Below are positions 20,004 to 58,820 of a DNA stretch of 64,000 nt, in pieces. Position 1 is the stretch's first letter. Each line of letters starts with the position of its first letter. The position numbers were made by a program, and so were the translations under genes. The stretch comes from Paralichthys olivaceus (Eukaryota > Chordata > Actinopteri > Pleuronectiformes > Paralichthyidae): positions 15,100,501 through 15,164,500 of the forward strand of contig NC_091112.1 in assembly GCF_024713975.1 (NCBI RefSeq), given 5' to 3'. The notes beneath the pieces are model-generated. The model did not search any database. It had not been told where the DNA came from and saw nothing but the letters and a program-made list of their open reading frames with translations.

Positions 20004-23000
20004 ATGTCTTTCCCTCAGCTGGGGTACCCCCAGTTCCTCAGCGCCTCCCATGAGGTGTACGGGGGCGAGCGGCCGGCCTCTGCCCGGGAGGGTGCTGCCG
20101 AGGGCGGCGTGAGCTCCTCTGCCACCGCCGCGGCTGTCGGCTCCATGCTGGGGATGTATGGGAGCCCGTGGGTGGCTCACAACTACAGTGCCTTTCTGCC
20201 GTACAGCGGAGCCACAGACCTCGCCCTCATCTCCCAGATGGTGAGAGTTGTTTAATGTTGATGACACGCGCTGATCTGTCTTTTGTTATAGATTAATACG
20301 CAATTAATCAATGGCACCAAGTGATAGACACGCCATTCTTATTCTGTAATATTTATGGATTTAGATAATAACTGTCCTATTATTTATGATGATCTGCTCA
20401 TTGTCAGTTTTATCATTCACCATGTGTAGGTCTGTGGTCTAAATTATAAAACACTATAATTAGATAAATATATAATTAGTGGAAGCATAAACATAAACTC
20501 TACAATTTAAGCTACAGGCATATTGTTTTCGTTTCTGTAAATTGTGTAAAAGATAAAGGGGGAATTACTGCTAATTTTAACGTCAGTGGTAGAGTATATA
20601 ATCTATGGAATCGTTTATTAATTAGAAAGCAAATATAGTTTATTAATAATATAAGAATAAAAATGTAGAGCCTTTTAAAATGTATAATGTTTCAATTTTT
20701 TGTTCGATAGGCTTAATCTAAACAAAATGAAAATATTTATATATCATTTTAAATTCAGCCACTTTAGAAATTAAATAACTGACATGGGCTAATTTCTTAA
20801 TTCAGGGTGTGTCTCATTCTGTGTTTCCTAAATTTAGGCTCTAATACACCAACACTTTTGAAAACGTTCCCCCCACACATAAATAATAAATGATGTGGCA
20901 TTTTAATTAAACATTTATGAACTTTAGAGGACATTTTTAAAAGACGCTCAACAAGTTGCTTTCTCCAATTACATGTCCAGGGCTCCCAGTATGAGCTGAA
21001 GGACAGCCCGGGCTCTCACCCGGCCTCCCTCCCTGTCCACGCCGCTCAGGGCTTCTACCCGTACGGCCAGTATCCGTACGGGGACCCGTCGAGGGCCAAG
21101 ACGGCCACGCGGGAGACCACGAGCACCCTGAAGGCCTGGCTGCAGGAGCACCAGAAGAACCCGTACCCCACCAAGGGAGAGAAGATCATGCTCGCCATCA
21201 TCACCCGGATGACGCTCACACAGGTGAGTGCATGGTGTGTAGAAGTGTCAGCTGTGACCTGGCGTTAAAGGGGTTTGGAGAAAAGAACTCGGTGCCACTT
21301 ATTAGTGAAGAACATGAGCTGATTTGCTTTTCAAAAGGTCGTGTCCACACTTGTCACCTACAATAGCAGCACTTCATTAAACGACTTGTTCCATGACATT
21401 GTTTTGACAACTCATTTACAATCTGTGACACTTCCAAACCCACAGTTTAATAGTCTTATTTCCAAGCTCTTACATTGATCATAAGACTTATTTATCATAT
21501 TTTACATTAGGATATAGCCACAGTTTTCCACACTATGTGTTCAAACCAGTGCTTTTGATTTCAAAGTGTATAAAAAAAGTTTGTTTTCGTGTCCCAGGTG
21601 TCGACGTGGTTCGCCAACGCGCGCAGACGCCTGAAGAAGGAGAACAAGGTAACCTGGGGCCGCAGCGCCGAGGACCGGGACGGCCGCATCTTCAGCAGCG
21701 ACAACGAGGACGAGCCCGGCAAGAACGGCAGCGACGACGAAGACGAAGATGAGGAGATCGATCTGGAAACTGTGGATATCGAGAGACCCGAGGAGCAGTG
21801 CGCACAGGAGGAGCAGGGCTCCCCCAAAGTCGAGGGAGAGGCGGGCCTGTCCGCCAGAGAGCAGGCCTCGGAGCCTCGGAGCTCGGAAAGCGGCAGGACG
21901 CTTTCTGTGGAGGGCCTGAGAGGAGTGGAGGCGGCCATTTCTCTCAATAAATCGCCCGTTGTCAAACTCGCAGTGGATCATTCTCCCAGTAGACAGGAGT
22001 GCCAGAGACCCGCTCAGAGCAAACCCAAAATCTGGTCCTTGGCAGAGACCGCCACAGCCCCCGACAGTTCTCACAAACCTTCCCCTGCGGCCCATGCGCA
22101 TCACCCGGCTTTGGCCTCGGCCGGCCACCCGGCATTGCTCCCGGGTCATGGGATATATACGTGCCAGATTGGCAAACTGCACAACTGGGCCAACGCGGCT
22201 TTTCTGAACGCCAACTCTCTTTTGAACATGAGGTCGCTCCTCGGAGGGGCGCCGGCCGGACACCTGCCTCTCCACGGCGCAGTGCCGGCTGCGCGTCATG
22301 ACGCACGGCCGGTTGCAGCGGCGGCGGGCCAGGGAACTTCGGGAACTGAGGATGACAGTGATTTAGAGTCGTCGGGAAGCTTCAGTCCAAAAAGAGATGG
22401 TATGTGTTTAACTGTGCAACCCTCTGTTATTAATTTAACTCAATATTCCATGCAATATATGTGCCAACAAAACAACACACAAAGGACAAAACAACTATAT
22501 TTGCTCAAATTTGACAGGACAATTAATAATAATCATCAAATAATGATTATTATTATTATTATAATAACATTTGCTAAATAAATACATCGTTTGTCTTTCT
22601 ACAGACGAAGAGAGCGACCACAGGACCGATCCCCTGAAGTTCCAGCTGATCACTGACAGGTACAACAATCTCCTGCATCTCAAATCAATTTAGCATCATG
22701 ACATCGTCCACCTCAATTTCTCACCACATGTCTTCTGCTAAACGAACCTTAAAGGAGAGGTAAACACTGTTACACCTGAGCGGGCAGGAGGCACAACCTG
22801 CAGCACATAAATCATTTGATTGAGACCCCACTTTAACGCTTTGTCAGGCACCAGTCTAATATATCCTGCGACCCCCTCCCCACCCACCCTCTCTCCCTGT
22901 GAGTTATCGCCACCCTAATGTCATTTAAATAATCTGCCGCCATTTATTCACGCCCCCTCAGTGAATGCACCTAATGTATGTCAAAGAAAACGCTGATAGC

Positions 23001-23291
23001 AACATCATGAATGAAGTGGAGGGTGAAAAGACATAAAACAATTTACCGGCATGGTGTTTTTTAATTTGCATAAATTGATCTTAACAATGTTTTAATATGG
23101 TCTTTAAAAAGCTAAAGTCATACAGTTAAAATTGGGTAATTATTTTTAAAATGTGTGTAAATGGAATTGTGCTTTTAGGAGAAATATTAATCACTGATTT
23201 GATTTTATTACAAACTAAACCTATATTTTCTTTTTTCCACAGACCTCACCATGGCACAGCATCACAACGAGTCCTGACAACAACATTATGA
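20004..23291 (+). CDS. irx1b: Iroquois homeobox transcription factor Irx1 (irx1b-type), 5 coding exons
   Basis: This gene encodes a TALE-class homeodomain transcription factor of the Iroquois family, a nuclear patterning regulator. Coding exons are 20004-20240, 20981-21223, 21598-22399, 22605-22659 and 23243-23291; every junction is AG/GT, phases agree, and they give 461 residues (human IRX1 has 480). The start opens with [10 protein letters not shown], the family's N-terminal signature. GSQYELKD begins exon 2 (residue 80). The homeodomain spans about 118-181, with the TALE PYP insertion and WFANARRR recognition helix. An acidic stretch follows, then [12 protein letters not shown] at 302 and [13 protein letters not shown] at 345, both Irx1-type. 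The homeodomain is odd for Irx1: residues 121-123 are preceded by T rather than N, and it has ETTST, LQEHQKN and ITRM. The last two exons keep only a blurred match to the Irx1 C-terminus. An in-frame upstream ATG at 19836 is judged 5' UTR. Calling it 'b' rests on the missing irx2 and compact spacing. Confidence 0.93.
22770..23000. promoter_or_regulatory. irx1b: Candidate regulatory block in irx1b intron 4
   Basis: The last intron of irx1b is AT-rich except for this block. It contains AAATCATTTGATTGAGACC, TAATGTCATTTAAATAATCTG and CGCCATTTATTCACGCC. Its composition differs from both flanks. Candidate only. Confidence 0.35.
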
Positions 23292-23567
23292 GAAGACACA
23301 GAAAAGAAAAAGAGAAAGGAATCATTTTATTTAACGGAGAACAATTTAACGAAGGATATTTTTTTCGGCAAGGGCATCTGTCATAGTATTACTGTTTAGC
23401 TTCTACATGCAAAAGACATGGTTGGTTTTGTCACAGATTTGCTTGTATCTCTCTTTCATGTCCTATGTTTTTTTCCCCCCTCGCCTCTTCTGTTGTGAAT
23501 GGAAACCTTGAAAATTGTAAATACAGGATATGAATTTGTCTTTAAAGAGTATATTTTTTGGGATCTA

Positions 23568-23573
23568 AATAAA
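23568..23573 (+). terminator. irx1b: Polyadenylation signal AATAAA of irx1b
   Basis: A canonical AATAAA lies about 280 bases after the irx1b stop codon, with T-rich sequence downstream. It is the first good signal on the + strand after the gene, so the 3' UTR is probably about 300 bases. Longer 3' UTR forms cannot be excluded. Confidence 0.6.
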
Positions 23574-24304
23574 TGTCATTATAGTCATTTATCATTCAAG
23601 ACTTTTCTATTCTAACTATAATTAGAAAATTGTCCATCTTCTTTTAAAACAAAACAAACCCTGGATGTATTTATCTTCCTTTAGATTGACACTGACATTT
23701 GTATGTCAATTTACAGTTTCCCATTTTATCAGATAACTATCAATTATCAGTTATAACGTGATCATTTTAATTCAGCACAATGCAGAAATTATCTTTTTAG
23801 TTTTCCTCCATCTACTTTTGAGTGTGAGGTCTCAGCAAACTGTATTTTAAGGGAAAACCAGACATAATCATTGATTCGTACTCGTTTTAATGGTGATCAC
23901 AGTTCACCTTTTAATTGATTCTTTTGGCCCTATGTCCAGTGAGTTTCACACTCTTCTTGGCAGCTACACCATGCAGTGTCAGCCCTTTTTTTTTTACTTT
24001 GCAAGAAAAGTCCTGCCCTCATTGAAATCTGCACCCTTGCCAAAACTCGGAGACTTTTGCCAGCGCCTTGGAAGCCACTGCAAACGCTGCAGAATTTTGA
24101 AAATTGAAGCTTTCCAGGACCTTATGAACCTGCGCCTGTGCTTTCAGCCTAGGCCTCCTCACTTTAATGTTGGATTATACCCCCTCAGTGCCACCACTGC
24201 CGCCTCTGAAATATGGATCAGACGGCAGGAAAGGCCAGCAGCCAGTATGGGGGCGGCAGCTCAGGGGGAGGTGGATGCGAGGGTGAGAGGGGAGGGCAGG
24301 GGGT

Positions 24305-24345
<41 letters not shown>

Positions 24346-25683
24346 CACTCCAAGCCATCCTTGACGTTCACAGGCCCAAAGTCATGGGGTAGGAAGAGAG
24401 AGAGGATGATGGGAGGTCTTAGTGCTTCTATAGCTTTCAAAGCTGGGGTCCTATGCTTGGGTTAGCAGCAGATCATGCGTGGCACATAATTCGGGGTCCT
24501 ATGGCCTCTCAAGGGGCCCGGGCAGGTTCATGTACTGTCGAGATTTAGATTTAACTGAAAGTTTTAAATTCACATTTTACTATTGTTTTAAAGAAACATT
24601 TTAATTTGATCGTCCATTGCTGATAGTCAACTTTCTGTCAGGTGCCGGAAAGTAAGGCCTTGTGGAGGTGATGAATACCACTGAGGTCTGTAGATATGAA
24701 GGCTTTGGATTAGATTACTGAAATGTTAGAATCAGGGTAAGGCTGGGTCGGGTTAGGTAAAGTTACATGGTCGACAAACAGCAAATAAGTGTGTGGCATT
24801 GTGCTGAAGAGCCTCTCTCTGTCATCTGATAGCTTCAACAGATGAACCCAAGTGGATGCTTGTGTATTTGCTGTGATACAATTCCCCATAAGGAATCATC
24901 ACAATATCATGTAAAGTTCACACACAGTCAAACAGGGATTTGAGCAGACGAGATATGACCACTGATGGACTCAGAGCCACCGGGTGATGTGACTCAATGC
25001 TGCCACCTCACTCTCAGAGAAAGCAGAGCAGTACTACACCATGACGGGCACAACTGTCACTGTGGCTGTAGGTCTGTACTCACACAGGCACTAGACCCTG
25101 AACCTTTCTGCAAGTATAGCTCAATCATACTCAGCAAAATCAACCCAACAACAATCAATACAGTTGGCTCAGTTCCTATATTGTTGCCGCTTATAGTGAA
25201 AAGCGTGTATCTCCAAATATTTTGGAATGAAGTTTTACTTTGTGGGTGTTAAAACTCAGAGGATTATCTGAAAACAAAGCTGTTTCAATGTTAAACATTT
25301 AGAAATGCACGTTTTTCTCAGTTGTGACTATCCATACCTCAACATATCATACACTGCCAATGACTCCATATACAGTATTGGCTTTATTGTACATTCACTT
25401 CAGTGAAAATAATTACAATAACTATTTTCTGCCAGAAACAAACATCCAAACATTCAGTCACATGGGCCTAAAATGCACCTTTGATTGTGTGTGAGGAAAA
25501 TATACTTTTTAAAATGTGCATGAGGGATATTCATTGTAAAACATCACAGGCTGTAGATTGTAAAATATGCAAGGGTTAGTAAAATGTTTGTATTTTAAAA
25601 AATATATTCAGTTATTTCTTTGGATTGCTCATGCTGATCATAAACTAGAAGCCACGTTCACTGTTTGTGGTAAGATGAAAAAA
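23574..25683. other. Intergenic between irx1b and irx4b, no gene seen
   Basis: A 191-codon open frame at 23890-24465 has no domain and runs through a TG microsatellite (24306-24345), so it is not taken as a gene. The remainder shows nothing recognised. A residual homeobox of a lost irx2 was looked for among the open frames across 23.6-38.2 kb and not found. Confidence 0.45.
24306..24345. repeat. (TG)n microsatellite
   Basis: About 19 TG units. Confidence 0.95.
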
Positions 25684-26078
25684 AAGTACCTTTACTTTAT
25701 TACAATGCTTCGAAAGTACATGTTTACTTGAGTAGATTTATTTTCAGGTACTTTTCACTACAGTAGATCAAATATCTGTACTTTCTACTCCACTACATTT
25801 AAAAAAAAATGCATTGCATTAATGCTCACTTTGTATTTCATATTTTTAGAAGTTTATAACCAGAAGGGAATTGGCCCATTGATCCAATCAGAGTGGGCCG
25901 GTAACATTAGACCCCGCCTCCTTCAATAAGATTAAAGTGCACCTGCAGCAGCATCACTGGTGAAGGAATAGGTCACTGCTGAGAATGAGCCATGTAGTAG
26001 ACCATTGCAATATGCTTCACTCGGCAAGTACTTTTACTTTTAATACTTTTAAAACGTATATTTAAAAGCAAGTACTTA
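25684..26078. repeat. Dispersed teleost repeat built of AAGTACTTTTACTTT-type ends
   Basis: It starts AAGTACCTTTACTTTATTAC, continues TTTACTTGAGTAGATTTATTTTCAGG and TACTTTCTACTCCACTACATTT, and ends CAAGTACTTTTACTTTTAATAC. These phrases recur widely in teleost genomes. Probably a non-autonomous DNA transposon; borders are approximate. Confidence 0.6.
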
Positions 26079-28064
26079 GTCAGGAGTCAGGACTTAGGAG
26101 GTGCTTCCAGGTGCCGTAGATATTTTCCTCCCTCACAAGTCTGAATATCTTAATTCATTCACCCATCCCTCTATTCGCCCACCCACACATCTTCACGCGG
26201 GGAGAGAAAGAGTCAGAAAACAAGAGATGGCAAAAGCAAACTTGAGTCGAAAGAGAGCAAATGAGCGAGCGAGAGAGATGATGCAGTGAGAGCTGTCATT
26301 GATGTGAGAACAGCATGGAAGGAAGCCAGACACTTGAGGCCATTTTCACTTCCTCTGCCAACTCTGACAGACTGCCATCAGCACTGCTGAGGAGAATATC
26401 AGCCGCTTTTTCTCTTATGCACACACACTTCCCTCTTTCTGCACTTCATCCCAGCCAGACCGCGCGACTGTTCTTCCAAGTACCCAAACAATATGTTATT
26501 CTTTCAAAGTTGGAAATCAGTGAGCTTAGCATGATGGGGCTGAAAATGACATCAAATAGCTGTTTAATCAGTCACACAGCGTGTCCAAAACATGTTTTGT
26601 TATGAAAGGAGTGGGAAAAGCGTGCAGATCCAAAATATGATTAGCGTTTTCTGGCGAGTGCAGCAAGAACTTCTACAGAGTTTCAAGTTAAGGCTTCACG
26701 TTGCTAGTTTGTCACCCAACCTGCCCCAAAACTTTTCTAAAGTAGAGCTGGTACACAGTGTGAATAAAAGAAAGAAAAGAAGCCATGCATACGTGAGGAA
26801 AACAACCACCATTATACGTGTGAATAAGACTCTTTCTGTGGAGTTGTATCAGCCCCTCAAACTCTCAGTGTGAACAGAGTCTTCATTGGTGCTTTGGTAT
26901 TCTGATAGAGGCTCTTTGGTGAGGTCTAATCCCTATTAAAGAGGCAGATTATGGAAGGGATTTGTCTTTGATTCTCCTGTCCCACTGCTCTTTTCTGCCA
27001 CCATCTCGCTCCCTCTATATATCCTTCCCTCGTTCTTTTTCTCTCTGCTCCTCTGTCATCTTGATGGGATGGTTGGGGTCTGAACAATGATTGCCTCCAT
27101 GTGTCATCTCCCTCACACTCCCACTCCTTTGCCATGCTCCTGTGATTACGGTGACATGTATGAGGACCCCCGGTCGCCTGAATAGATTTGTTAAAGGCCC
27201 CCAGTGGATGAGAGAGGTCCGGGCCTCGTATAGACTGGTCCTCGTGTGCGCATCCATTCCCTTTCGAGGGACTCCGCATGGGGGTGAACCGCCTGCCAGT
27301 CATCCCCCCCACCCCTCCCTCCTACAGTGGCTACCCCTCCTACTCCTCTCCTCTCCTCCGCCACACAGAGATAATCAGGCTTATGTAAAGATGACGTGCT
27401 CTTTTGACAGTCATCAGCTCATCAGTGATCCAATCAAGCCCAAATCCGCCATTGTTCGCCCCTCAAAGTGTCTCAAATCCGCTTGTGCAGGAGAGAGGGG
27501 CTGCGCTCTTTATCCTGCCAATCACTCCTGACATTCCTGCCACAGTTGCCATGGCCTGGGGTCAGAGGTCATGAAAACAGAGAGCATGGAGCTGACTCGG
27601 GGAGAATGGCGGAGTGCCAAAGGAGGGACTCTCTGTGCGATGGTCCCATTGGTCAACCATCGCAGGGGGTAAGTGTAGACAAGTTAGGACTCTATAGCCC
27701 CCGCTGAGAGGGCCAGCCGCACAGAAAGAGACAAGGGGCTGAGGGGGGGGCGACGACGCAGAGAAAGGGCCAAGGCAAGAGAAAGAGGGCAAGAGAGGTG
27801 TGTGTGGAGAAAGGAGGAAAAAGAGGTTTAGGGAGGGACAGTGTTTGATTGCCAAATAGGCTTTACATTGCTTGACCTCGAGGGGCTTGAAGAAAAAGCC
27901 TGATACCCAGTCAAAGAAATAATGAACACACAAGTTAATATTTCTTCAAGCCTTTTGCATTTCTGCATATAAACTACAACAAAACAATCCGCTATGATTA
28001 ATTCTACTCTACACAACAAGAGGTTAAGACCAAAGCTGCCAGAAAAAAAATCACGCTCTGTTTT
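26079..28064. other. Intergenic, no gene seen
   Basis: Only short open frames. 27390-27500 is unique sequence (GACAGTCATCAGCTCATCAGTG, CCAATCAAGCCC) that could be regulatory. 27720-27840 is purine-rich. Confidence 0.35.
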
Positions 28065-28076
28065 TGTGTGTGTCTG

Positions 28077-28118
<42 letters not shown>
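28065..28118. repeat. (TG)n microsatellite
   Basis: TG units with TCTG breaks, then about 18 pure units. Confidence 0.95.
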
Positions 28119-28119
<1 letters not shown>

Positions 28120-29117
28120 ATGCTAGCTGCTGAGCTGTAATTTGAAATGGAAATGTACCTCCCAACGCAATGAAGCTAATACATGTCATTGCGGGATAAG
28201 CGGGGCACTGGGTTAAATCTGTTGTAATGTCGTCAAAAGAATAATTTTCTGTACCCAATGTATACGTAAGTGAGCAAATGTTTAGCCTAGACTAGATATC
28301 ATAGGGAATTTACGCCATTCACTGTTCCTCCTTAGGGATTAGTGGAATTAAGCATGTACACAAAAGCAAAGTATCAAAACTCATGGGTAATTCAACAAGC
28401 TCCACAATGCTGAGTTTACCGAGTGCCGTGTTTTATTGTCGCGTTGCAGCTGCGAGCGCCGTACAGACAAATAGCAAACATCGTCAGCGCCGTTAAAAGG
28501 AGACAAATTTAATATACAGGGAAAATACACACGGCAAATGCTATGAAAGGGTGGGAGTGATAAGTCTTTTCTCTTGTTTGCCCATTCATGGCAATAATCT
28601 GAGGGAAGAAGCAGATTAGGACAGAGGGAGGGTTCGTGGTTGAGTGTTCGCATCGCTGGCTCCTTTCAGCCATTTTGAAACAATGTTTATCCACTGGTTT
28701 GTTATAGCGGAGCAACTTAGCTTAGTGAACTGCTGTGAGAGTCCTGAGGGTGGGTGGGGGGGGCCTGAGGACTCGCTGCGTCTTTGTTCAGCATCCATTG
28801 AGACACATCGATGTATTATAGCGACGAACGGAAAAGCTGCAAAACTTGAATTTGTATGTAGTCTTAATGGTGATTTCTGCTATTTGTAAATTAGTTTGCG
28901 AATTGCTCTCTATGTCACAAATGTTTGTTTCTGTTTTGGTTAATGAAGAGAAGAAGGTATTTCTGTTTAACTTGTCAGTACAACGTCAGCGAAGGAAACA
29001 AGCACACTACTCCACTGCAATCATGAAAACAAATCTCAGATGGTTCTTGAAATAAGTTCATATGTATGCCAGGTTGAAGTTGGTCAGTCATTCATGCTCC
29101 TCAGAGGATTAATCGAC

Positions 29118-29544
29118 TTAAGGCAGATTCATGCTTCTGTGTTGAAGCTACGCCTTAGGTGCACACGTAGCCTACGTACGAGGCAGAGCATTCATAGTTG
29201 TGTGTAGCTGTCGAGCTCTAATTAGAACGTCAAAACACTACTGGCTGTAGAGGTTCTTTACTGGTGTTGAGTGTTTCTGGTTCGCTTATTTACAAATTCT
29301 CTAGCGTCCCTGTTTACTTCAGAACAATGTTGTGAGTGTTACTAAGGGGATGGTGTTGGATCAGATAGATGTCGAAAAGCAATTACTTTTTCTTAAAGAA
29401 CTGTAATGAAGAAAAGAAAGACGTCATCCGTGTTTGTTCCTTCAACTCAGTTTAAAAATGGGGAGTCTGCTGGAGATGCGACACTATCAAGCGGACCAAT
29501 CACAGCTTTTGTGAGGGGAGGTACAAAAAGCATGAATTAGGCTT
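29118..29544. mobile_element. MITE with imperfect terminal inverted repeats
   Basis: The left end AAGGCAGATTCATGCTT (29120-29136) pairs imperfectly with AAGCATGAATTAGGCTT (29528-29544). Inside are GAAGCTACGCCTTAGGTGCACACGTAGCC-type phrases near the left and CCAATCACAGCTTTTGTGAG near the right, known from a common teleost MITE. No coding capacity. Confidence 0.6.
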
Positions 29545-30199
29545 CATCCTCTGGTGATACCTGAGGGACAAGTCTTCACATGTCCTGTAAAATATCTTAT
29601 CATCTTGATTGATTGATGCAAATGTCTTATCAGCCTTCATTGCTTCACACGCATTAGTTTTGTCCAAGGAGGTGCAGTGTTGAAATTTTACAGATTTGTC
29701 TTAAAGTGGATAAAATTACATCTACCCCAGGAAGGAAAATCATCTCAATCTGCTTAAGCTTAACTCCAGCGATTTTGTTAAATTGTTATGAATATGACAA
29801 GACAAGATACAGATTTTTGTACTGTACAGTACCGCATAGTGCAAAACCCCCACTGGCTCTCTTTCGCTTTGTGGATGATGATAGAAGACTCATGGGTCAC
29901 ATATCCTCACAGTATAATTACACATGAGATGTGTGCATGTGCATTGGGTTACACACACTATCATTCTAACACACTCACACAGTTGCAGAGTAATATGAGT
30001 CCTCATTCATCTGCCCAAGTCGTTTAGGGTAATAGAGCTTAATGGAGTATATTAACCCCGTCCAGCTTGCACCCGCCCCCTCCTTCTACCTCCGATGTGT
30101 GTGTTCATGCACATGCACAGGGAAAGGGGAAACCTGCCAACTGTTTATCTGCAAGGGACACACACACACATATACTGGGGGAGCAGAGATCTGGTTTCC

Positions 30200-30560
30200 C
30201 ACTGTCACAGATGCTTACCCGCTTCTCCATTAGTGATGTGATTGGAGTGGACATAGAAAACCAGCAGCACGTTCCCACAGGGGCAATCTGAGGAAATTAT
30301 TGCCCCGCTGCTCTCCGGGGAATGTCATCGCTCCAGAAAGAAGCACTTAATCAACTGCTATCACATGCAAGTCTCTGTCAAGCGCTTACCATGAGTTTTT
30401 GAGCATTTGGTGTGGATTAATACTTTGTGGAATGGTGTTTGATGATATGCGATCAGTCATGGCACACAGAAAGAGGCTTGCGGGAGCTGCACGGCTCTCA
30501 AGATGTGGAATCAGGAGATCAGAGACAATCAGCGGCGTTTAATGGGAAAGTGACAAATAG
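30200..30560. promoter_or_regulatory. Candidate enhancer between irx1b and irx4b, with a hairpin
   Basis: Unique sequence with CCATTAGTGATGTGATTGG, GTGTGGATTAATAC and AGCACTTAATC. An 8-bp perfect inverted repeat is also present: GGGGCAAT (30280-30287) and ATTGCCCC (30299-30306). Candidate only. Confidence 0.35.
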
Positions 30561-30974
30561 ATGATCACTGGAGAATGAAGATTGATACAATAGTCCAGAT
30601 CTTCCGTCTGTTTTTTAATACTATTTTCTGTGTGATATAAGGATTAAACTAACTTCTTATCTTAAACAAACATTATGGGATTTCGTCCATCCTGATGCAA
30701 ATGTATGAACGTGGCAAACATCAAAAACTGATTAAGAATTAGCATAAAACAACAACAACATTAAACTCACGTCGTGAACCGTAGGATGTTAGGAAATACT
30801 CTGCTGGTGGCAAAAAGTCCTGGGAGGTCCGGTCAGAGACGTAACATGAAGTCTGCAGCCACACCCAAGTGCACGCATGCAGACAAGCAGACCCACTGTG
30901 TGTCTTTGGTCACCCACTCAATTGTAGGTGACCTTTTGACCCTGGTCAATAATAACTGCAAGTTGAGACCACTG

Positions 30975-31300
<326 letters not shown>

Positions 31301-32974
31301 AGTTCTTTAAACCACCAGAGGATGGCACCTGAGATCCAGGCAGAGATGCTGCAGCAGTCATGTGAAACACTGGGTGAAGCCTTGTTCTGATTCCCGTTTT
31401 CATGGTATTCCCCAATTTAAGAATGTAAAGTGGATGCTGCTGCAAGGCTCTGAGATTAAATGTCTTCCCCAGTTTTCTAGGATTTCAGGATTTTCTAGGA
31501 GAATTCACTTTGAACTAAATTAGGAAGTCGTAATAAAACATGGTTAGCTTTATAACCAAAGAAATAGTTTATAAATATTAAACCATGGCTTTATGCTTAT
31601 GCTCTGCAGATCCTTGCATGGCTAATAGGAGCTGCTAAAAACACATATACACATACATTGGCAAGATTGTTTTATACTAATATTTTCCCTGACGGAGAAT
31701 TGTTGAGAATATGTTTTGGGACTGAAGGAAGAAGTAGAAATATAGATAAAAGTCTAACATTCAAATGTTTACTGAAATACAAATTGGCATAAAATTACAA
31801 AAGTAAAAGGACATTGCAGCAGGAAAAATGTAACTGATTTTATGTTATGTACTTTAATTAGGTCGTTTGTGAATTTTAAGCACAAATTGATCCCAAACTT
31901 AAGTAACATCCAGATAGTATAATGTACATTTCTTTGTTGAATCTCAATATGCAAAACTAAAATAGAAAACTATATGAAAATAGAAATTCACATTAAGGTC
32001 TAGGAGAAATCATGTAATGATTCACACTCAAAAAATACAAAGATTTATTTAATAGAAAGACTAAAATGATTTTACATGATAAAGAAACTTAAAATCATGG
32101 GCCAGAGAATTATAAAAAAACAAGAGGGCTTTCCAATCAAAGAACAGAAATCAAGTCCAAGTGCAATAATGGACAAATGAATAGATGGGGTAACAGTCGA
32201 AGGATCAGTAGACGGGATAAGGTGGGTCAAAGTGTTTGTTAAAGGCTCTATCGGTCCCTGTGGACTGAGGCTTGAAGAGCTGAATAATGTATGTCCGCTT
32301 CAGGAGTAATGAAGTGGAAGTGATGGGGAGGAATACGGCTGGCCTCCCAGGGCTCAACACAAACTGTACACACTCTTAAGAGCTGCCTGTAGCCTAAACC
32401 TGTCTCCCTCTCTGCCTCTGTCTGTCCTCGTCCACTTCCTTTCACACACGATGCACAGCAGCTAAGAGGGTTAGCATGTCTCTGTTCCTGTGTCTTACAT
32501 CATTGATGAGGAGGACCGGGGCCTTTAAAGTGTCTCACTCTAGAGTTCAAAAGCTCCAGATCTTCCACGCGGAGGCTCTTATTAGAGTCGAGCGGAGACA
32601 GCAGGAGGTAGCATGGCTGCTGCTCAGCAGCCAGACACACGTATGGTGTTGGCAGTCTTGTTTGTGGATCTGGCCTGGTTTGCACTTGCAAGGCGCCGGT
32701 GTGCTTAACAAGAGGCAGCCGCTGTACACAGTGTCTTGTGGCAAAAAGAAAGAGCGACTTCCTCCCCTCATGATCCATTTATCGCTTGTCCTCCTCCGTC
32801 CTTTTTTTTGCTCTTAAATATCCCTCCTTTCTCTCACTGAGCGAATGTTGGAAAAATGGTGGGAAAGTCACCTTCCCTTGTGTTTATATATAAATTTGGA
32901 ATGGAAACAACTCTCTACTGTTCTATTTCATAGAAGGATTTTATAGCACACAGATCTAAAGAAATGTCTTTTTA
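31301..32974. other. Intergenic, no gene seen
   Basis: 31400-32240 is AT-rich with nothing recognised. 32250-32360 is unique sequence (GAGCTGAATAATGTATG, GGAGTAATGAAGTGG) that could be regulatory. Open frames in 32476-32817 on both strands lack domains. Confidence 0.35.
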
Positions 32975-33172
32975 ATCCACCTCCACCAATGAGGTTATGT
33001 TTTGATCAGTGTTAGTTGTTTTGTTTGCTGGATTATGCCAAAGCTGCTAAAATGACTTCCATGAAACTTGGTGGAAGGATGAGTAATATGTGTCAAGGAA
33101 GAAACTGTTACAGATCTGGATCAGGGGGCAGATCCAGGGTTTTTCTTTATCTTCTTTAAAATGATTCACAAG
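32975..33172 (+). repeat. Dispersed repeat, family B, copy 1
   Basis: CCACCTCCACCAATGAGGTTATGTTTT ... GAAACTTGGTGGAAGGATGAG ... GATCTGGATCAGGGGGCAGATCCAGG are phrases recurrent in acanthomorph genomes. A short truncated relative lies at 47566-47610. Confidence 0.6.
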
Positions 33173-34689
33173 CTTATGTTTTCTCCTACTGACAACTCGA
33201 AGATGAAAACAATTAAATTACATATTTAGATATAGAAAAAAACAATATTGTGTTACTGTACTCGTTAATCAGAACCATGGGTCCTGTATCTATACATACG
33301 ATACAAAGACAGCTGGTAATATTGCTGTTATATGTTATTGGTCTGTGGAGTTGGGGGATGAAGGTGGCCACATCAGAAAAGCCCTCTCCTCTTCTTCTAC
33401 TCCTCCAGGCTGATAGACCTGCAGGGGGCGATGTTCTTCAGCAGACAGGGGTTTGCCTCTAAAGGTCTGAGGCACTTTCTATCTGTGAAAAAATCAATTT
33501 GCTGAAATTTGGCTTTTTGTCCTTAAGACATTTGGTAGATAATATTTCAGTGGTACTTTTGGAATCTGTCCTTCAGCAGTAGCTTCTGTGTTTGTCACTG
33601 AACTTGTAGTTCAGAGCTTGTTGGATGGACTGCTCCTTTTCGTTGATTTCTTTAAGAGTTGGGAGTTGCATCCCAGCACCCAACATACCCTTTTTCTATC
33701 CATGAACAAATTATAACCATACCACAAGGTACCATAACCTTTATCTGTTTCTTTTTTCACATTGATCCAAGTTGGTAAACCTCCTCCAGTTCCACCACAT
33801 CCACAATTTTAGCAACTACTGTACATAACATGGTTCACTGCTTCCTGCCATCCTTACCCTATCCCACTAACAACAACAACCCTAACCATTCCCACAGAGC
33901 ATCCAGTCACAGTCTCTGCAAAAGAGGCTAAAACTATTAATTAACAACTTCTTCCTTCTTCACTTCAACTGTGCAAGATCACAAGGGGGTGGTTTTTAAT
34001 TGCACCTGCAATCTAGTCTGGTTGCAACGTGAGAGCTTCAGTAACCTCTGTAAACAGAATCTCTTTGTGAATGTAGGGATATGTGAAAGAGGAATCTTAA
34101 TCTTAAGATATGTATGTGAGGGACAAGACTTTGGCACCAGAAGCCTTCTGATTTCTGTTTCTAGTTTGACCAATCAGGTTTAGTTACCCACAGGTAAACC
34201 ATCCGTGTGGAGATCGAAAGAGGCGGGTCACGTTGCCTGTTTTTTATTTAGCTGTCAATAGAGATTAGCCAAAAGGTTGTCTGGACCCAAACCACCTACA
34301 CAAAGGATGAGTTCTTGTGTTTTGAATTAGAAAGAAATGTTTGACTGATAAAAGAAACTAGTCAGACTATAAACAGTGTACATGAGACCAGAAGACAGAG
34401 TCTGGCTCGGATATCTACTCTCTACACCAGAAACCCCAGAATATCGGCAAGTGCAGAGACTAATTCGTCCTCGTCTGAGATTAGGACTTCAGGTATTTCT
34501 TGGTTGGATACAGTGGACACTCCATTAAATGACTGACAGACAACCAGAGATAACACCAGTATGTTTTACACTTTGTGTTGGTTTGCAGATGTTGATATTG
34601 GCACGAGCCAGACTAGCTTTTGCCCCTATGTCCACTCTCAATGCTAAACTAACCTGACTGGCTGCTGCCTGTAGCTTCATATTAGGTAA
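33173..34689. other. Intergenic, no gene seen
   Basis: Only short open frames without domains. Nothing else recognised. Confidence 0.35.
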
Positions 34690-34960
34690 ATCATCTGTAT
34701 TCATATGGTGCTTTTCTAGTCTAGACGACCAAGTAAAGCACTTTAAAGTACAGTTTTGTCATTCACACATTCATACACTGCATCTATGTGCAGCACTTTC
34801 ACCGACAGCACCGACAAAGCAATATGGGAGAATTTTGAGGTTCAGTGTTTGGTGTTTTGCCCCAGGACACTTGGGCATGTGGAATGCTGAAGACTGGGAT
34901 CGAACCACCGACCCATTGGTTAGTGGACAACCAGCTCAACCCTCTTAGCCCCAGCTGCCT
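34690..34960 (-). mobile_element. tRNA-derived SINE (minus strand)
   Basis: Read on the minus strand it opens with a tRNA-like head. The head holds a decayed A box (GGGGCTAAGAGGGTTGAGCTGG) and a B box GGTTCGATCC (34897-34906). A body with GCCCAAGTGTCCTGGGGC follows, ending in AGAAAAGCACCATATGAATAC. This fits the teleost SINE that commonly ends 'aaagcgctatataaat'. Diverged; not a functional tRNA. Confidence 0.65.
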
Positions 34961-36765
34961 CTAATATTTGGTTTCAATCTCCTTACTTAACACTCTGCAA
35001 GTAAACAACATTTTTTTAATTTTCTTTTACCTGGACATTTTCCTGCCGAGTGTGACTGCCTCACCAAAACAAATGCTCACAAAATAATGAAATCATGTTT
35101 TCACTCAGGTTGTTAAAAGCATTCTCATTCTGGGGCCCATCAGCACCACCCACTGAGATATTTTCAGTAAAATAGCAAAAAAGCGTGATGACGGCTCAAA
35201 AAGCATCTACATGTTAAACAGTGATTAAAATTGCATAGATTTCAGACTTTAGCGTAGAAAATATTCAAATGCAGCGCACTGTGATTGAAGGAACTTGTGA
35301 TTGGAGTTGTTTGGTGCTCTCCTCCAAACACTCTCTGCAGTTCAAGCCTCCTCCTGCTCTCACATTAACATGCTTCTATCATTAACCCCCACACCCCACC
35401 CACTGCATAATAGCTAGAGCTGAATGCAGGAAGGACAGAATAAGAATGCGGTTCCTTTCCTTTTTTTTTATCTTGTGGAGCATCTTGAATGAATGATTGA
35501 TGTGAGGGGAGCGAGATCAGAAAGATATAATCACGGTCTAACGAACGCAGAGCTTTAAGAAATATATACTGGAGGAATGCTATAAATTTATAAACACATC
35601 ATATATTAATATATAAGTGGTTCATTGAATATTCAAAAAGAAGGAAATAACATAATCTGTGCACCTCCGTGTGTAATGTGTGCTTTATATTCATTCTTTC
35701 TACCCAGGAAGAAGGTAACAAATGCTTTGGAAGTTGAATTCAGACTCACCATCGTCTGCTCATTCATCGAAACCTCACAAGTTATTTTTCCCAGTAAACT
35801 ATAGAATGCAAAGATTAAACACAGTCGTGTTCATTGTCACCGGCTAAACAAATTTCCATTCTCTTTGAGTGACACGTGTTTTGTGTGAAGACGTGCAAAG
35901 CCAGCACGGGGAGATAACTTCATTTCCAAGCTTTGAGCACAGATGAGGCAGAGACAGTTAGTCCGTGTTCGGTATATGAGCACCTTTCACGGGACAAATG
36001 GAATGTCAATCAAGGGCCCGTACACAGATGCTTTCTCCCTGGTGGGGCCTGAGATGCTTTTTGGTGATGCGGCTCTGTTGTTCCAACCTTACTCTGGGTG
36101 CACTGGGAATATTCTGTCCTTTTACCCCTCCACATCCCCCTCGCTCCATTTCAGATCCCCTGGCTATTAATGATTTCCTCAGCTCCTCAAGTTTGCCTCT
36201 TTAGGCTTTCCCTCTTTTCCCCCTTGTGTTTATCAATGTTGGATGTCTTGCATCCAAAGGTTCTTTGCCAACTCTTCTTTTGTCTCTTATTTCTTCTCTT
36301 TCTCATAACTTTTCATTGATGTGGCTGTTCGATTGTCCCCTCCATATACTAATCCAATAGAAGGAACTGTGTGAAATGTATTAATGTGGCAGTGGTGGTA
36401 AATTTTGAAATTGTTTTTAGATATATATAAAAAGGTCCATGAAGAGGAAGATAAATGACAATACCTGCCCCCAAAATCTCAAAATAATGTAGTTATGACA
36501 AATAACTGCTAATCAAGCATTAAGTTGATCGAGAAAACTGGGAAAAAGCACAATTTCTTTCGTAATGTTTTCCACCTAACCTACAACTCCTAAGTTGGAA
36601 CCATGGAAGTGTAACAGCGGCAGAAGTACCAGACCTTAGTTATTAACAATAATATGACCTCTGTCATCATGGTAACCAGAAGAAAACATCCAGTTAAGGT
36701 TGTAAAACTGTTTAGTCTGAGCACAAAAACTTCCTGGAACGGAAAAAATAAACGCTTGTGTTAAA
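34961..36765. other. Intergenic, no gene seen
   Basis: Open frames at 35943-36319 overlap each other and have no domain. 35940-36070 is unique sequence that could be regulatory (GGGACAAATGGAATGTCAATC). Confidence 0.35.
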
Positions 36766-36954
36766 ATCATAGACAGTATTTTAAGATGGACGACATGACG
36801 GCTCCACAAAATTAAAGCCTTAAGTGTCTTAATTGCCCCCTGGTGGCTGGCTGCAGGATATGTCAATAACCCTGCCTCCTTCATGTTAGTGGATAGGACA
36901 TGTACCAAACTAGTGTAAAAATACATGTGAAATTGATTTTTCTCAAAGATGGTG
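36766..36954. repeat. Dispersed acanthomorph repeat
   Basis: ATAGACAGTATTTTAAGATGGACGACATGACGGCTCC ... GCCCCCTGGTGGCTGGCTGCAGG ... CATGTTAGTGGATAGGACATG is a well-known spiny-rayed fish repeat string. It supports the taxonomic call. Confidence 0.6.
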
Positions 36955-37319
36955 TATGAGATTTTAGGTAGTTCATATCAATCTGATGATCAAATTTAGA
37001 AATTTAAATACACTTAAACCACTACCACAAACTCCCCTTCGTCATCCTGAGGAGTTTCTGTACAGTTCCTTACTCCTTTACCTCTGTAGCGCTTGCCCTC
37101 TACCCCTTTTCTTAACATCACTACTTCTGCCATTTTCACTCAAATATTTTAACACCACCCCACATCCCTTTCACACTTGCCCCGCTCCCTGTCCTTCTTG
37201 ACCCATAAAAGATGAATAAAAATTCTAAAGGAGAAGAAATAGAAGTAATGTTTCCACTTCAGCTGGGCAGCTTAAGACACTGTTATTAAAAACATGACAA
37301 GCCATTCAGTTGGTAAAGG

Positions 37320-37799
37320 TGCTTACTCAAGGGAATACGGAGGAGTGTTTATTCTTTGATTAATTTGCTCGGAGGAGACCTGAAATTTCCCCACTCATGA
37401 ATATGTGGATGACAGGGAGATTTCTCTGTGGTGACAACTTATCTAAACTACAGGGCAAAACGATTATGCTAATATCAGGTTGTAGTCATCAATCATCTGG
37501 TGTCAATGTGGTGTCAACAGCATCACGTTCCTGATCCCCCTTCTGGCCATAACAACTGTGTGTGTGAGTGTGTGTGCGTGTGAGTGTGCGTGTGTGTGTG
37601 TGAGAGAGAGAGGAGAATTGATCACATTCTCATTTTGCCTGGAGACTTATTTTTTTGGGGGGGGGGGCGCACTTGCACGTGTGAGAGGTAGTTCTATTAG
37701 ATAAGTGTATGTGTGTGTGGTGGTGGTTTTTTTTTGGGGGGGGGGGGGGTTAATTAGGTGAGTTTCTTCGTCTTGATATGAACACACACATAACACATA
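37320..37799. promoter_or_regulatory. irx4b upstream block with TG tract and poly-G runs
   Basis: 37320-37550 is unique sequence with TTCTTTGATTAATTTGCTC and TTATGCTAATATCAGG (octamer-like). It is followed by a TG tract (37560-37610) and two runs of ten or more G (about 37658-37667 and 37737-37750), which could form G-quadruplexes near the promoter. Role inferred. Confidence 0.3.
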
Positions 37800-38220
37800 C
37801 ACACCAGAATCCTGCGCCGACGTCAGAGAGACGCGCCTTAAAAGCCAAAGAGCGCATCACAGAGAGATGAACGGTTTGATCACACACACACATATATACA
37901 CCCACACACACCGATACACACACTCGCTTTGGATTGTAACCTCAGCAGGGACACTGCAGAAGCTGCAGTAGCGGCTTGAGTGAGGCGGAACCGGAGGGGG
38001 AGTCGAGAAGTTACTTTTTGAAGACCGTTCTTCGCCGTGCGTAAAATGAAAGTGGTGCGTAAATGTCCGCGCGTCCCCGTCTGGATAAGGTGGTAGATGA
38101 TAAACGCAAAACTCGCTCGGAACTAGTGACAGCGGTGAAAGTCTGCCTCTGCCACGGATGCTGTTGATTGTGGTCTCGGGTCTGCGCTCCTGCTCCTGCC
38201 TGTGAGATCTGATTTGTGCC
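37800..38220 (+). promoter_or_regulatory. irx4b: Probable irx4b promoter and 5' UTR
   Basis: This CpG-containing stretch lies directly upstream of the irx4b ATG. It has a CRE-like GACGTCAG at 37819-37826 and a TATA-like CTTAAAAG at 37837-37844, eleven bases apart, and then about 380 bases that would be 5' UTR. Poly-G runs and a CA tract lie just upstream (37650-37800). The placement is inferred from these elements only. Confidence 0.4.
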
Positions 38221-40793
38221 ATGGCTTACTCTCAGCTGGGATACCCATACTCCACCACACCGCAGGTACTGTCAATATCTTAAGCATGTTTAACGACATT
38301 TAAGTTGAGACTTGACTTGAGCCATGTGAATATACTCTAGGTTCTTCTTAAAACATGACAATTCCGCCTCCAGATTATTTCTCGTGGTTCTTTTAAATCA
38401 TGTCTTTCAAGATTTAACCTAAACCATCAACAACAACAACAGTGTCTACAAAAAACTGTTAAGAGACGATTTTCTAATGCAATGTATTACCGTATCTATA
38501 TGTTTTAAATGTTAGCAAACTTCTTTCTCAGTGACGAATTGTCTAAATTGAACAATTTTCTTCCAAAAGTTTCTGATGACCTCAAGCTCTCTGGCTGGTT
38601 GTCTGGAACCGGGAACCCCTCCGTCTCACCCGGTGCTGCGCTCCCCCGGGCCCCAGCTCACCCCGAGCACCGGCATCGGAGTCTACAGCGGCCCTTACCC
38701 AAAGAGCCAAGGTTACTACAACACCTGCACCAGCGATGCCACAGCGCTCTATTCCAGAGTGAGTCTCACAATCCAGCTCATTCATAAGATCCTTTCTACA
38801 AATATTTACCAAAATTCTTACATAAGAATCGTAGTTACGCATCAGGGAAGCAGGGACCCTGTCATTTTTGAAGACTATACCTTGTCTGAAATGATATGGT
38901 AATGTTATTTGAAACAGAAAAAAAAGTCAATAATTTCCAGCTTTTTTCTAAAGTCACTGGAGTGTTCCTGTTGTTGGAATTATTCAGGGATTCTGATTAA
39001 TTTTGTATTTATGTGAGTTATGTGCCAATTTTTTTTCAGGGGCCACTGGATCCAAAAGACGGGGCTGCATCTGTGCATGTGGGGACATCTCAGACTCCTG
39101 CCTACTACCCCTATGAATACACATTTGGACAATATTCTTATGACAGATATGGGTAAGTCATCGTCTGTTTGTCCTTTTTTCCACATTTAAATTTGTATCT
39201 TTGTGTTAGACGTCCTGCTAAGGAATAGAGACAAAGAGATAAAAATATGTATCATGTGTCATATTCCTCACTGTCTTGGTATTGTTATTATACCACACCT
39301 ATAATATCCTCTCTGGGATTCAGTGGCTGGAAATGGTGGCGCTTTTACAGTGGTTTTATTGTTCTCAATGGTATAGTTTCTATCCTATAAGAGATCATTC
39401 ATATATTATTTAATACCCCACATAGTTACTCATAAAATACAGGGTCCATTCTTCCATGCTGAATTTCACTCACTCATTTCTGCTAAGACAGAAATGAATA
39501 TTGTGTAACATTACGATTTTCTTCAGGTATTCCTGCTCTGATGGTGCTTCTCGTCGCAAAAATGCCACCCGAGAGACCACCAGCACCCTGAAAGCCTGGC
39601 TGCAGGAGCACCAGAAGAACCCCTACCCCACAAAGGGAGAGAAGATAATGCTGGCTATCATCACCAGGATGACTCTCACACAGGTGAATATCTCTTACAT
39701 TTATTACAAGTTTCAACTCTACTGCCCATGAGTCCTAGTTAGTATTTTCTCTCAATCCATTCCTTCAACTTTTTCTTTATCTGTTTGCACTGCTTACTTT
39801 ACACTTGAATTTTAACACGAGTCTCTTCCTTACTTCCTATATTCTCCATTCCTTCACTTCCCTTCTTTCAATCTGCCCTTCATGGCTGCGTAACTTCCTT
39901 CTTCCCACTATCCCTTTGATTTTATCTCTTTTTATGACCTCTGTTCGCTCTCTCCCTCAGGTGTCTACATGGTTTGCCAATGCACGCAGGAGGCTGAAGA
40001 AGGAGAACAAGGTGACGTGGTCACCGCGAGCTTGTAAAGGCTCTGATGATCGAGGATGTGATGATGACAGTGATGAAGCTGAGAAGCCAGTTAAAGATGA
40101 AAAAGACCATCCTGGTAAAGCAGAAGGCTTAAACCAGTCAATGCATTTCTGTACTGTTTTAAGGTAGCATGTATAAACTGAGTATTATTTGTATGATTCA
40201 TTTTTGCAGATCAACAATGTGCCGACCTGCAGAGTGATCTCGAGGACTTCGACCTGCTGGAGTCTGACGCTTCTGACTCTGAACCGAAGCCACAATTCCT
40301 ACCTGAGGACGATGGAGAAAACCCAAACACAGATCTCCCACACGAGCACCTCACACACAACCCTGAACCGCTTCACCGAAAAGACAGATTGTCCCCAGAC
40401 TGCCCCAGACTCACACCAGTCCAACACCAAAACACCTCCTTCTTTCCAAACCCAGACCTTCAAGGCACAGATGTCAAGCCGAAAATATGGTCCATCGCTC
40501 ACACTGCTGCGTCTTTGGATGGCAGCTTGCAGCCAGAGTACCCTCCCTGTATGCTCTCATCCAACGGCTCCTCCTCTCCTGTGTATCCATCAAGTATGGG
40601 GCTCACTAAGGCAGACAGGCAACAGGAATCACCAGTCGCCACGCTCAGAGAATGGGTGGACGGAGTATTCCATGGTCCGCCTTTCCAACAGCCCAAACCA
40701 GCTGAAGTGTGGAAAGGCTTTAATGACGCCGCGATAGACGTCAGAATACCTGGACAACACTTTGAACTTGTTCGGTCTACGTCATCTTTGTAG
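38221..40793 (+). CDS. irx4b: Iroquois homeobox transcription factor Irx4 (irx4b-type), 6 coding exons
   Basis: A second TALE-class Iroquois transcription factor, in the same orientation as irx1b. Coding exons are 38221-38265, 38570-38758, 39040-39152, 39527-39683, 39961-40114 and 40210-40793; all splice sites are AG/GT and phases agree, giving 413 residues. Irx4 identity rests on FLMTSSSL at residue 16, DPKDG near 81, [17 protein letters not shown] with [10 protein letters not shown] before the homeodomain, and REWVDGVF at 366. These match the known Irx4 patterns FLMTTNSL, SKDG, GQYQYDRYG and DGVF. The homeodomain spans about 126-189 and includes PYP and [14 protein letters not shown] recurs at 309. 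In the family Irx4 acts in ventricular heart and retina; here that is inference. It is shorter than human IRX4, missing most of the sequence after DGVF. Its homeodomain has KVTW at the end, as in Irx1, rather than Irx4's KMTW, and carries the same unusual Q and R as irx1b. Confidence 0.92.
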
Positions 40794-49671: not shown

Positions 49672-50052
49672 GTTTACACCAGCCTGTATTTCCCAGAATG
49701 CCCTGTAGGGAGGCTTAGATATAGTGAAATTAGCTAACCCGGGTTTTGTCTCACAGGCACTGAGTGCTTTCTCTGGCCTTATATGTAGTTATTTATTATT
49801 GAAGATAACGTCTAGTCCTCATCTTTATCATATCAATGATTCTATAACGCCACGATATACATTATTTATATAAATTAAGAAAGGGAAATTGTCTGACAGG
49901 CGCAACCGAGGGCACAATGTACCCCTGTGTTATCGAAAACCGGAAGCAGTTGTATGCCCACAAGGATGAACTGCAGCTGTAGTGTTGCTATTAAAACTGC
50001 AACATTCGTGACTATAAACCACTTTTAAACACCCAGCGAATATCTAACAGGT
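49672..50052. promoter_or_regulatory. Bidirectional promoter ndufs6 / mrpl36
   Basis: ndufs6 (minus) and mrpl36 (plus) diverge from here. Next to the ndufs6 start codon TTCCCAGAATGCCCTG (49690-49705) fits the ZNF143/Staf core site. CCGGAAGC at 49940-49947 fits a GABPA/NRF-2 (ETS) site. Both factors are known to drive nuclear genes for mitochondrial proteins. A candidate donor ACAG|GTTTGT at 50050/50051 would close a non-coding first exon of mrpl36. Sites are seen in the sequence; their use is inferred. Confidence 0.55.
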
Positions 50053-51001
50053 TTGTTCACGTCCTCTGCATTTAATGAAAAGATCGAGTCATGTCGAATA
50101 TTGAGGTTTCGGTGGTTTTAATGTCTGTCTTTGGCGCTAGCAGGTTAGCACATGCTAGTCTCCTTGGCATGTCCCACAGCTAAGCTACAGTAACACCGGG
50201 CAGTGGTATTGACATGTGTTCACTGCACAGGGAAGGAAGATAGCAGCTTTTAAACGTGACACTTTGTTTACCCTTTGTAAGTGTATTAATGCTGTAATAA
50301 TCAGACTACGTAGCAGTTTGGATCATATCATGTACATTTTGTAATGATTCATTGTGGCTCTGTTATATTGGTAATATATCAATTCATTCTGATCCACATA
50401 TTCAATTTCCACCAGACAGTTTGCAATAAACAACAAAGTAAATAAGGGCATAACAAATAAATAAAGATGTAAAAGGTGTAGGCTGAAGCTAAAGCTTATG
50501 ACACCGTCCCGTTATAAAAAGTATTAATTTGATTGGTTATGTATAAAAGCGTATCACCTTATTTTTCAAAAATTTTTTAACTTGTACATTGAGCTACATG
50601 TTTCAGTTCCTAATTATATAAATGCCCCAGATGTTACCCCTTTAACACATTCACATCTATCTATCTTTATATATCTGTCCATACCCTTGACCAGAGAATG
50701 TTTCTTCAAATGTACTGAATGTTTTACCAAAAATCCAAAACCCAAAGATATTATGTTTATTATAATATGTAACATCGAGACGCAACATATCTTCCCATTT
50801 GAGAAGCTGGAACCTGAGAAACTAACGGCTTTCTCTGTGATCAAGGACTAATGCTCGAATAATCATTTTAGCTCTACACCACTATATGTATTAAGCAAAC
50901 CTCAGATTAACAGAGAGTCTTATATCAAAAATGTTGATACATTTTGCAACAGTAATTGCATCTGAATTATTTATCTTCTCCTCTTTGCAGCCTTCGACAC
51001 C

Positions 51002-51382: not shown

Positions 51383-51447
51383 AATGTTGATGGAGGTTTG
51401 AAAATTTGCTTTGAAATTGTGAACAATCAAAACAACTGTGCTGTTAT

Positions 51448-51453
51448 AATAAA
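51448..51453 (+). terminator. mrpl36: Polyadenylation signal AATAAA of mrpl36
   Basis: AATAAA lies about 65 bases after the mrpl36 stop codon, followed by T/G-rich sequence typical of a cleavage site. Confidence 0.7.
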
Positions 51454-53630: not shown

Positions 53631-53899
53631 ATGATGTCATATTTAGTTTTATGGCTATTGTTGTTAAGTGACTAGTTTATTTCAAAAAAATATTACAATC
53701 AAGACAGGGGCATTTCAGGGGCCAGTCAGATTTTAGAGGCGGGACCATAGCCCCCCTGGCCCCGCCCTTTGGTCCATCCCCGACCCAAAACCCCAAAGTT
53801 TTATTTTGTGTTTGTTTTATATAACACACATAATACACACTACATTATGCAGATATAATATCATGGCTAAATTACCTTTTCAATGTGACCCTAAAATAA

Positions 53900-58785: not shown

Positions 58786-58820
<35 letters not shown>

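Follow-up and report, generated by a model that had tools for sequence, protein, structure and literature searches.

The irx1b and irx4b genes of Paralichthys olivaceus, which lie on the same strand with a current spacing of 18 kb, encode an identical homeodomain, and in both a phase-0 intron interrupts the homeobox between residues 44 and 45, an intron found in none of the eight other Irx genes recovered from this genome (five read directly, three judged from the length of a masked stretch). Two things are unusual: the pair of homeodomains are nearer to each other than to those of their own ohnologues, and the intron is missing from every other Irx gene found. Of these observations, the common intron is stronger evidence than the identity. 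Because the common homeodomain and the intron in the same place are lacking in closer relatives, the case suggests that a segment of one gene was replaced by sequence from the other, in the distant past and not recently. We give a little better than an even chance to an old gene conversion between homeoboxes of the b cluster that spread both the intron and the residue changes. The analysis covers one genome, and coordinates (Table 1) refer to the window, i.e., the whole stretch of 64,000 nucleotides that was analyzed (GCF_024713975.1, NC_091112.1:15,100,501-15,164,500, forward strand).

Translation of both genes revealed a TALE homeodomain with the three-residue loop and the WFANARRR recognition helix of Irx proteins, and the Pfam model Homeobox_KN scores above its cut-off in irx1b exon 2. 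Outside the homeobox, protein comparison, which for irx4b covered the short acidic piece and the last exon, assigns irx1b to irx1a and irx4b to irx4a. The C-terminal part of irx1b has irx1a as its top match (E 9e-37), irx4a matches irx1b exon 1 over only 20 residues, which is chance level, and the short acidic piece of irx4b matches irx4a (E 0.006). A search of this genome for irx2b found none.

Table 1. Positions of the irx1b and irx4b coding parts and homeobox introns in the window.
Feature	Position	Strand	Description
irx1b exon 1 (79 codons)	20004..20240	+	70% identical to irx1a (82 positions aligned)
irx1b exon 2	20981..21223	+	homeobox codons 1-40 at 21104-21223; non-homeobox part 67.5% identical to irx1a
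irx1b homeobox intron	21224..21597	+	374 bases, phase 0, homeodomain residues 44/45
irx1b exon 3	21598..22399	+	homeobox codons 41-60 at 21598-21657, followed by the acidic region and an 11-residue motif
irx4b homeobox exon, first part	39527..39683	+	homeobox codons 1-40 at 39564-39683
irx4b homeobox intron	39684..39960	+	277 bases, phase 0, homeodomain residues 44/45 as in irx1b
irx4b exon	39961..40114	+	homeobox codons 41-60 (39961-40020) and start of acidic region
irx4b last coding exon	40210..40793	+	39.8% identity to irx4a over 171 residues, E 9e-26

The first-pass annotation of this locus had reported a fully shared homeodomain, and translation bears this out at 60/60 residues (40 before the intron and 20 after it). 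In the first homeobox exon part, 109 of 120 bases are equal and all 11 differences are silent, as it had also stated; the 60-base part in the next exon holds 10 differences, again all silent. The 29-base perfect block to which it drew attention is real and unexceptional, since irx1a and irx4a share one of 48 bases and irx2a and irx4a one of 35; irx1a and irx4a likewise differ by 11 silent changes in the first homeobox exon part. Near-identity is not rare among Irx homeodomains (59/60 between irx2a and irx5b), and irx1b and irx4b agree with their own ohnologues at 56/60 and 57/60 residues, respectively. The claim that the pair carries unusual residues holds at both positions: the Q of HQKN occurs in none of the seven other Irx genes readable there (R in irx1a, 2a, 4a, 5a, 5b, and 6a; L in irx7) and the R of ITRM in none of the five readable there (K in irx1a, 2a, 4a, 5b, and 7). 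All four homeodomain changes in irx1b and all three in irx4b reach the same residues, and at residues diagnostic of irx1 or irx4, irx1b has the irx4-type T and Q and irx4b the irx1-type V.

The homeobox groups the genes otherwise than their flanks do. Quartet sites supporting (1a,4a)(1b,4b), (1a,1b)(4a,4b), and (1a,4b)(1b,4a) number 9, 1, and 1, or 5, 1, and 1 at third positions, and the best homeobox tree places irx1b and irx4b together with a clade support of 75 (all sites), 50 (third positions), and 50 (silent sites). The joint pairing of both genes with their orthologues is rejected by the AU test on all sites (P 0.011), on third positions (P 0.027), and on silent codons (49 codons with an invariant residue; P 0.012); it stays unrejected by the SH test on third positions (0.10), and the pairing of irx4a with irx4b alone is unrejected by AU (0.12, 0.36, 0.39). 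Two marks of gene conversion are thereby found, namely a local tree in conflict with the flanks, with a clade support of 50-75 and an SH value of 0.10 at third positions, and a rare structural change, the intron, common to both members of the pair and present in 0/8 of the other genes found.

The first-pass annotation had offered gene conversion between the tandem copies, or strong joint selection on DNA binding, as the explanation. Conversion is supported in an old form only, by the tree conflict and the common intron, and falls in a recent one. A recent event would account for 60/60 residues and 109/120 bases; we nevertheless reject it as highly improbable, given that silent divergence is the same as in other Irx pairs, the introns are unalike, and no tract is detectable. 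Indeed, irx1b and irx4b have no surplus of silent similarity (differences at 20 of 55 silent codons, P 0.41; P 0.48 for the b pair in an earlier permutation with seven genes, in which the a trio reached P 0.001), and irx1b has smaller silent differences to irx7 (14/46), irx5b (16/48), and irx1a (17/51) than to irx4b. The search for a tract with a GENECONV-like test returned no significant fragment (pairwise P 0.70 for silent and 0.49 for all sites), and the intron sequences share no significant similarity (P 0.12). In favour of old conversion, genes of one cluster resemble each other more in their silent codons than ohnologues do (P 0.005), but this signal comes mostly from irx1a/2a/4a (P 0.0003) and is absent from the irx5a/6a pair (P 0.34).

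Joint selection, by which one DNA-binding specificity of the b cluster drove both homeodomains to one sequence without any exchange of DNA, would fit a protein that stays identical while silent sites drift, and may fit the shared residue changes. Selection alone, however, explains neither the common intron nor the shared silent codons. The two unique residues sit in the TALE loop and in the turn between helices 2 and 3, off the base-contacting positions 47, 50, 51, and 54, which are equal across the seven Irx homeodomains readable in full. We accordingly regard joint selection as a scarcely credible sole cause.

The borders of the intron read CAG/gtgagt ... cccag/GTG in irx1b and CAG/gtgaat ... 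cctcag/GTG in irx4b; the irx1b intron has a length not divisible by 3 and contains in-frame stops, and both introns are probably spliced. A genome search for a repeat origin of the irx1b intron, by a method that skips repeats and very common words, matched only the intron itself. Intron gain through local duplication of coding sequence was considered and rejected as too weak, since positions 7-24 of the irx1b intron, set against the continuing coding sequence of four genes, match at 8-10 of 18 bases, and those of the irx4b intron at 5-7 of 18.

Other TALE genes of this genome, which we label Pbx-, Mkx-, and Tgif-like by their sequence, bear on the recurrence of the site: the Pbx-like and Mkx-like genes have a phase-0 intron at the same 44/45 site, the Tgif-like genes have acceptor sides there, and the eight other Irx genes found have no such intron. 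All seven Irx homeoboxes readable at the site carry CAG followed by GT, and NANOG also has an intron at 44/45 (PMC2211742). The Pbx- and Mkx-like introns, the CAG/GT context, and the NANOG intron lend some credit to parallel change, i.e., separate intron gains at CAG/GT of a recurrent site together with separate fixation of the same few tolerated residues, as do the unlike introns; with 4 positions changed in irx1b and 3 in irx4b, the chance that at least two coincide is 0.24-0.50 if only 8-12 positions are variable, but 0.010 if all 60 are. Even so, parallel change demands that two adjacent genes of one cluster each gained an intron at one base position and that 0/8 of the relatives found did, the silent codons too reject the joint orthologue pairing, and every change in either gene arrives at the same residue; we judge it unlikely, though one of the two main rivals.

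The Pbx- and Mkx-like introns and the Tgif-like acceptor sides would suit retention, in which the TALE intron at 44/45 was already present in the ancestor of the Irx genes and persisted only in irx1b and irx4b, and introns of vertebrates are lost more commonly than gained. Tetrapod Irx homeoboxes are not known to be interrupted, hence retention would entail extra losses. Under the published pairing of Irx1/3, Irx2/5, and Irx4/6 (PMC2674049), it further requires separate losses in at least irx1a, irx3a, the irx2/5 line, irx4a, and irx6a, and perhaps irx7. The common Q and R and the silent-codon grouping are left unexplained, and retention, the other main rival, is on balance improbable.

Beyond the homeobox, irx1b and irx4b are ordinary ohnologues of irx1a and irx4a. 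Under old conversion, one homeobox would first have gained the phase-0 intron at 44/45 together with two substitutions, R to Q and K to R. It would then have been copied between adjacent b-cluster genes by short conversions, one or several and all of them old, which wiped the residues diagnostic of irx1 and irx4. Later drift would have brought silent sites and introns to the usual divergence of the family, the protein being held by selection. The single origin of the intron, the copying itself, and its age and direction are what we infer from this pattern. Weighing against this reading, too, are the ordinary silent divergence of the pair, the negative tract test, the unlike introns, and the modest clade support.

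The split between Irx1 and Irx4 is older than the annelid Dlx pair of Capitella teleta. This pair, among the closest systems, arose by a duplication placed within annelids; according to the cited passages, its genes are inverted, tail to tail, whereas irx1b and irx4b share a strand, and nucleotide and intron similarity persists there, unlike in the irx1b and irx4b introns (PMC3199776). The hexapod genes engrailed and invected are reported to undergo concerted evolution (Peel et al. 2006, cited in PMC3199776) and likewise exemplify conversion in homeobox gene pairs, though in insects. As for vertebrate Irx clusters, irx1b and irx4b belong to an IrxA-type cluster, and the extra teleost clusters are attributed to the teleost genome duplication in a study whose main text does not use the words intron, exon, or conversion (PMC2674049). 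In our searches of open-licence literature, we found no paper with both irx1b and irx4b, no printed copy of the homeodomain string, and no description of the common-intron, common-homeodomain pattern. Single scans of bacterial/archaeal and viral collections confirmed relatives in 0/80 and 0/9 candidate stretches, respectively, and the solved structures matched comprise 26 distinct sequences, none named Irx, with PKNOX1 the best.

Intron gain is rare in vertebrates, and introns common to paralogues are usually taken as ancestral. Here, somewhat short of an even chance, a newly gained spliceosomal intron may have been carried by conversion into an adjacent paralogue whose separation preceded the vertebrate genome duplications, so that two otherwise dissimilar transcription factors came to share one fixed homeodomain, perhaps early in teleosts. 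As tentatively, concerted evolution confined to the homeobox may be a general feature of Irx clusters, because irx1a, 2a, and 4a also show cluster-wise codon homogeneity. If conversion spread the intron, intron presence would be an unclean phylogenetic marker in Irx, b-cluster genes would be wrongly placed in Irx trees built from homeodomains, and the homeodomain of an old paralogue would be replaceable while the remaining gene keeps its own identity.

Two of the ten Irx genes recovered by protein searches of the 588-Mb genome (25 contigs), a count that is a lower bound since some homeoboxes are partly masked and could hide a further gene, have a predicted phase-0 intron between CAG (Q44) and GTG (V45) of the homeodomain, the 44/45 site. 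These two, irx1b and irx4b, are neighbours but not sister genes, and both lie in the window, C20:15100501-15164500; all ten names are presumptive, resting on sequence resemblance and on general features of the family. Contig 25, of 17,090 bases, resembles a fish mitochondrial genome over the 9,999 bases read, and the genome is taken to be that of a teleost. The predicted introns (374 bases in irx1b, 277 in irx4b; neither divisible by three) have standard splice signals, and unspliced read-through soon reaches a stop in both frames. The homeobox is uninterrupted in irx1a, irx2a, irx4a, irx5b and irx7, which were read directly, and in the partly masked irx3a, irx5a and irx6a the masked stretch is as long as expected for a homeobox with no intron. 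No significant similarity was found between the two introns (local alignment score 13 against a mean of 10.9 after shuffling, P = 0.12).

The first-pass annotation had described the two homeodomains as identical, and translation and base comparison confirmed its observation as a whole: 60/60 residues are the same, the bases agree at 109/120 positions of the first homeobox exon and at 50/60 of the second, and all differences are silent. The residues it considered peculiar to the pair, Q of HQKN and R of ITRM, are indeed absent from the other Irx genes readable there (0/7 and 0/5, respectively). The homeodomain of irx1b differs from that of irx1a at four positions and that of irx4b from irx4a at three, every one (4/4 and 3/3) ending in the sequence common to the pair; R to Q and K to R are changes that the pair alone has, a further two make irx1b irx4-like and one makes irx4b irx1-like. 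This two-way mixing suits conversion, perhaps in more than one event.

Beyond the homeobox each gene pairs with its own ohnologue: irx1b with irx1a (identity of 70% for exon 1 and 67.5% for exon 2; C-terminal part, E = 9e-37), and irx4b with irx4a (last exon, E = 9e-26, in a comparison that covered its coding sequence after the homeobox). Within it, nine quartet sites join irx1b with irx4b and irx1a with irx4a, one follows orthology and one a third grouping. Maximum-likelihood homeobox trees of seven genes, resting on 60 codons, joined irx1b and irx4b (UFBoot 75 for all sites, 50 for third positions, 50 for silent codons, i.e., codons of an invariant residue). With both orthologue pairs forced, the AU test rejected the tree (0.011, 0.027 and 0.012, in the same order) and the SH test gave 0.024, 0.10 and 0.043; forcing irx1a + irx1b alone gave AU values of 0.021, 0.18 and 0.029, and irx4a + irx4b alone was not rejected by the AU test (0.12, 0.36 and 0.39). 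Judged on these alignments, the conflict at codons of invariant residues, of modest support, is not caused by protein selection. Pure joint selection on the two homeodomains appears very improbable.

At the base level the likeness is not very much out of the ordinary. In the first homeobox exon (120 bases) irx1a and irx4a likewise differ by 11 silent changes, and fourfold sites differ at 8/19 for irx1b/irx4b, 8/18 for irx1a/irx4a, 8/18 for irx1a/irx1b and 11/19 for irx4a/irx4b. Across all 180 bases, irx1b and irx4b differ at 20 of 55 silent codons (0.36; the 21 pairs among seven genes span 0.25-0.51), and irx7, irx5b and irx1a are each closer to irx1b in silent codons than irx4b is. Shuffling of codons within each residue among nine genes revealed no excess silent-codon similarity for irx1b/irx4b (P = 0.41) or irx5a/irx6a (P = 0.34), a clear excess for irx1a/irx2a/irx4a (P = 0.0003), and greater closeness of pairs within a cluster than of ohnologue pairs (P = 0.005). 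The longest identical homeobox blocks measure 48 bases (irx1a/irx4a), 35 (irx2a/irx4a) and 29 (irx1b/irx4b), and a GENECONV-like run test found no tract in the irx1b/irx4b homeobox (P = 0.70 for silent sites, 0.49 for all sites). Silent divergence, block lengths and run test thus leave a recent conversion unsupported, and we give it scant credence; the proposed conversion between tandem copies is supported in part, through the intron and the tree conflict, and as an old event only. The irx1a/irx2a/irx4a homeoboxes show cluster-wise codon homogeneity; irx1a and irx4a, which share the 48-base block, lie ~270 kb apart.

Irx genes, loci with the intron site and neighbouring features (C, contigs of the same genome; L, fetched loci)
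Feature	Contig or locus	Window position	Strand	Remark
irx1b	C20	20004-22399	+	18 kb from irx4b
irx4b, homeobox and later exons	C20	39527-40793	+	same strand as irx1b
irx1a, irx2a, irx4a	C13 (L011, L013, L012)			protein search
irx3a, irx5a, irx6a	C1			protein search
irx5b	C7			protein search
irx7-like	C6			protein search
CA/TG repeat	C20	8387-8803		long; upstream of irx1b
CA/TG repeat	C20	30975-31110		long; between irx1b and irx4b
ndufs6-like exon	C20	within 49318-62003	-	right of irx4b; by eye, without Pfam match
mrpl36	C20	within 49318-62003	+	right of irx4b; Pfam L36
lpcat1-like	C20	within 49318-62003	+	right of irx4b; by eye, Pfam acyltransferase below cut-off
Mkx-like and Pbx-like, phase-0 44/45 intron	L025 (C17), L030 (C16), L021, L024, L026, L027, L028			

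On C13, irx4a and irx2a lie on the strand opposite irx1a, an order that agrees with the human one, and the relative orientation of irx1b and irx4b differs from that of irx1a and irx4a. Taking the C13 order as ancestral, irx1b therefore looks inverted relative to irx4b. Protein searches of the genome found no irx2b, and either the inversion or irx2b loss may have placed the two genes close to each other ahead of the proposed exchange. The order ndufs6-like, mrpl36, lpcat1-like is presumably that of the IRX4 side of human 5p15.33.

The 44/45 site is also used by other genes of the TALE superclass, presumptively named from sequence and read by eye at their splice sites. Pbx-like genes have a phase-0 intron there (donor side at five fetched loci, acceptor also at four), as do two Mkx-like genes (one on both sides, the other on the donor side only), and the acceptor side matches in two Tgif-like genes. 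A Meis-like homeobox (L022, on C8) can be read through the site without a break, up to a stop codon beyond it, and is possibly a retrotransposed pseudogene. These introns raise the odds both of retention of an ancestral intron in irx1b and irx4b, the foremost alternative though itself unlikely, and of parallel change in the two genes, likewise doubtful, for which the site may be a recurrent insertion point. Chiefly for this reason, we hold with little better than even confidence that an old conversion limited to the homeobox would have carried the intron between irx1b and irx4b. As far as sequence can tell, the 44/45 site either dates back to the ancestor of the TALE genes or is a point of recurrent intron insertion.
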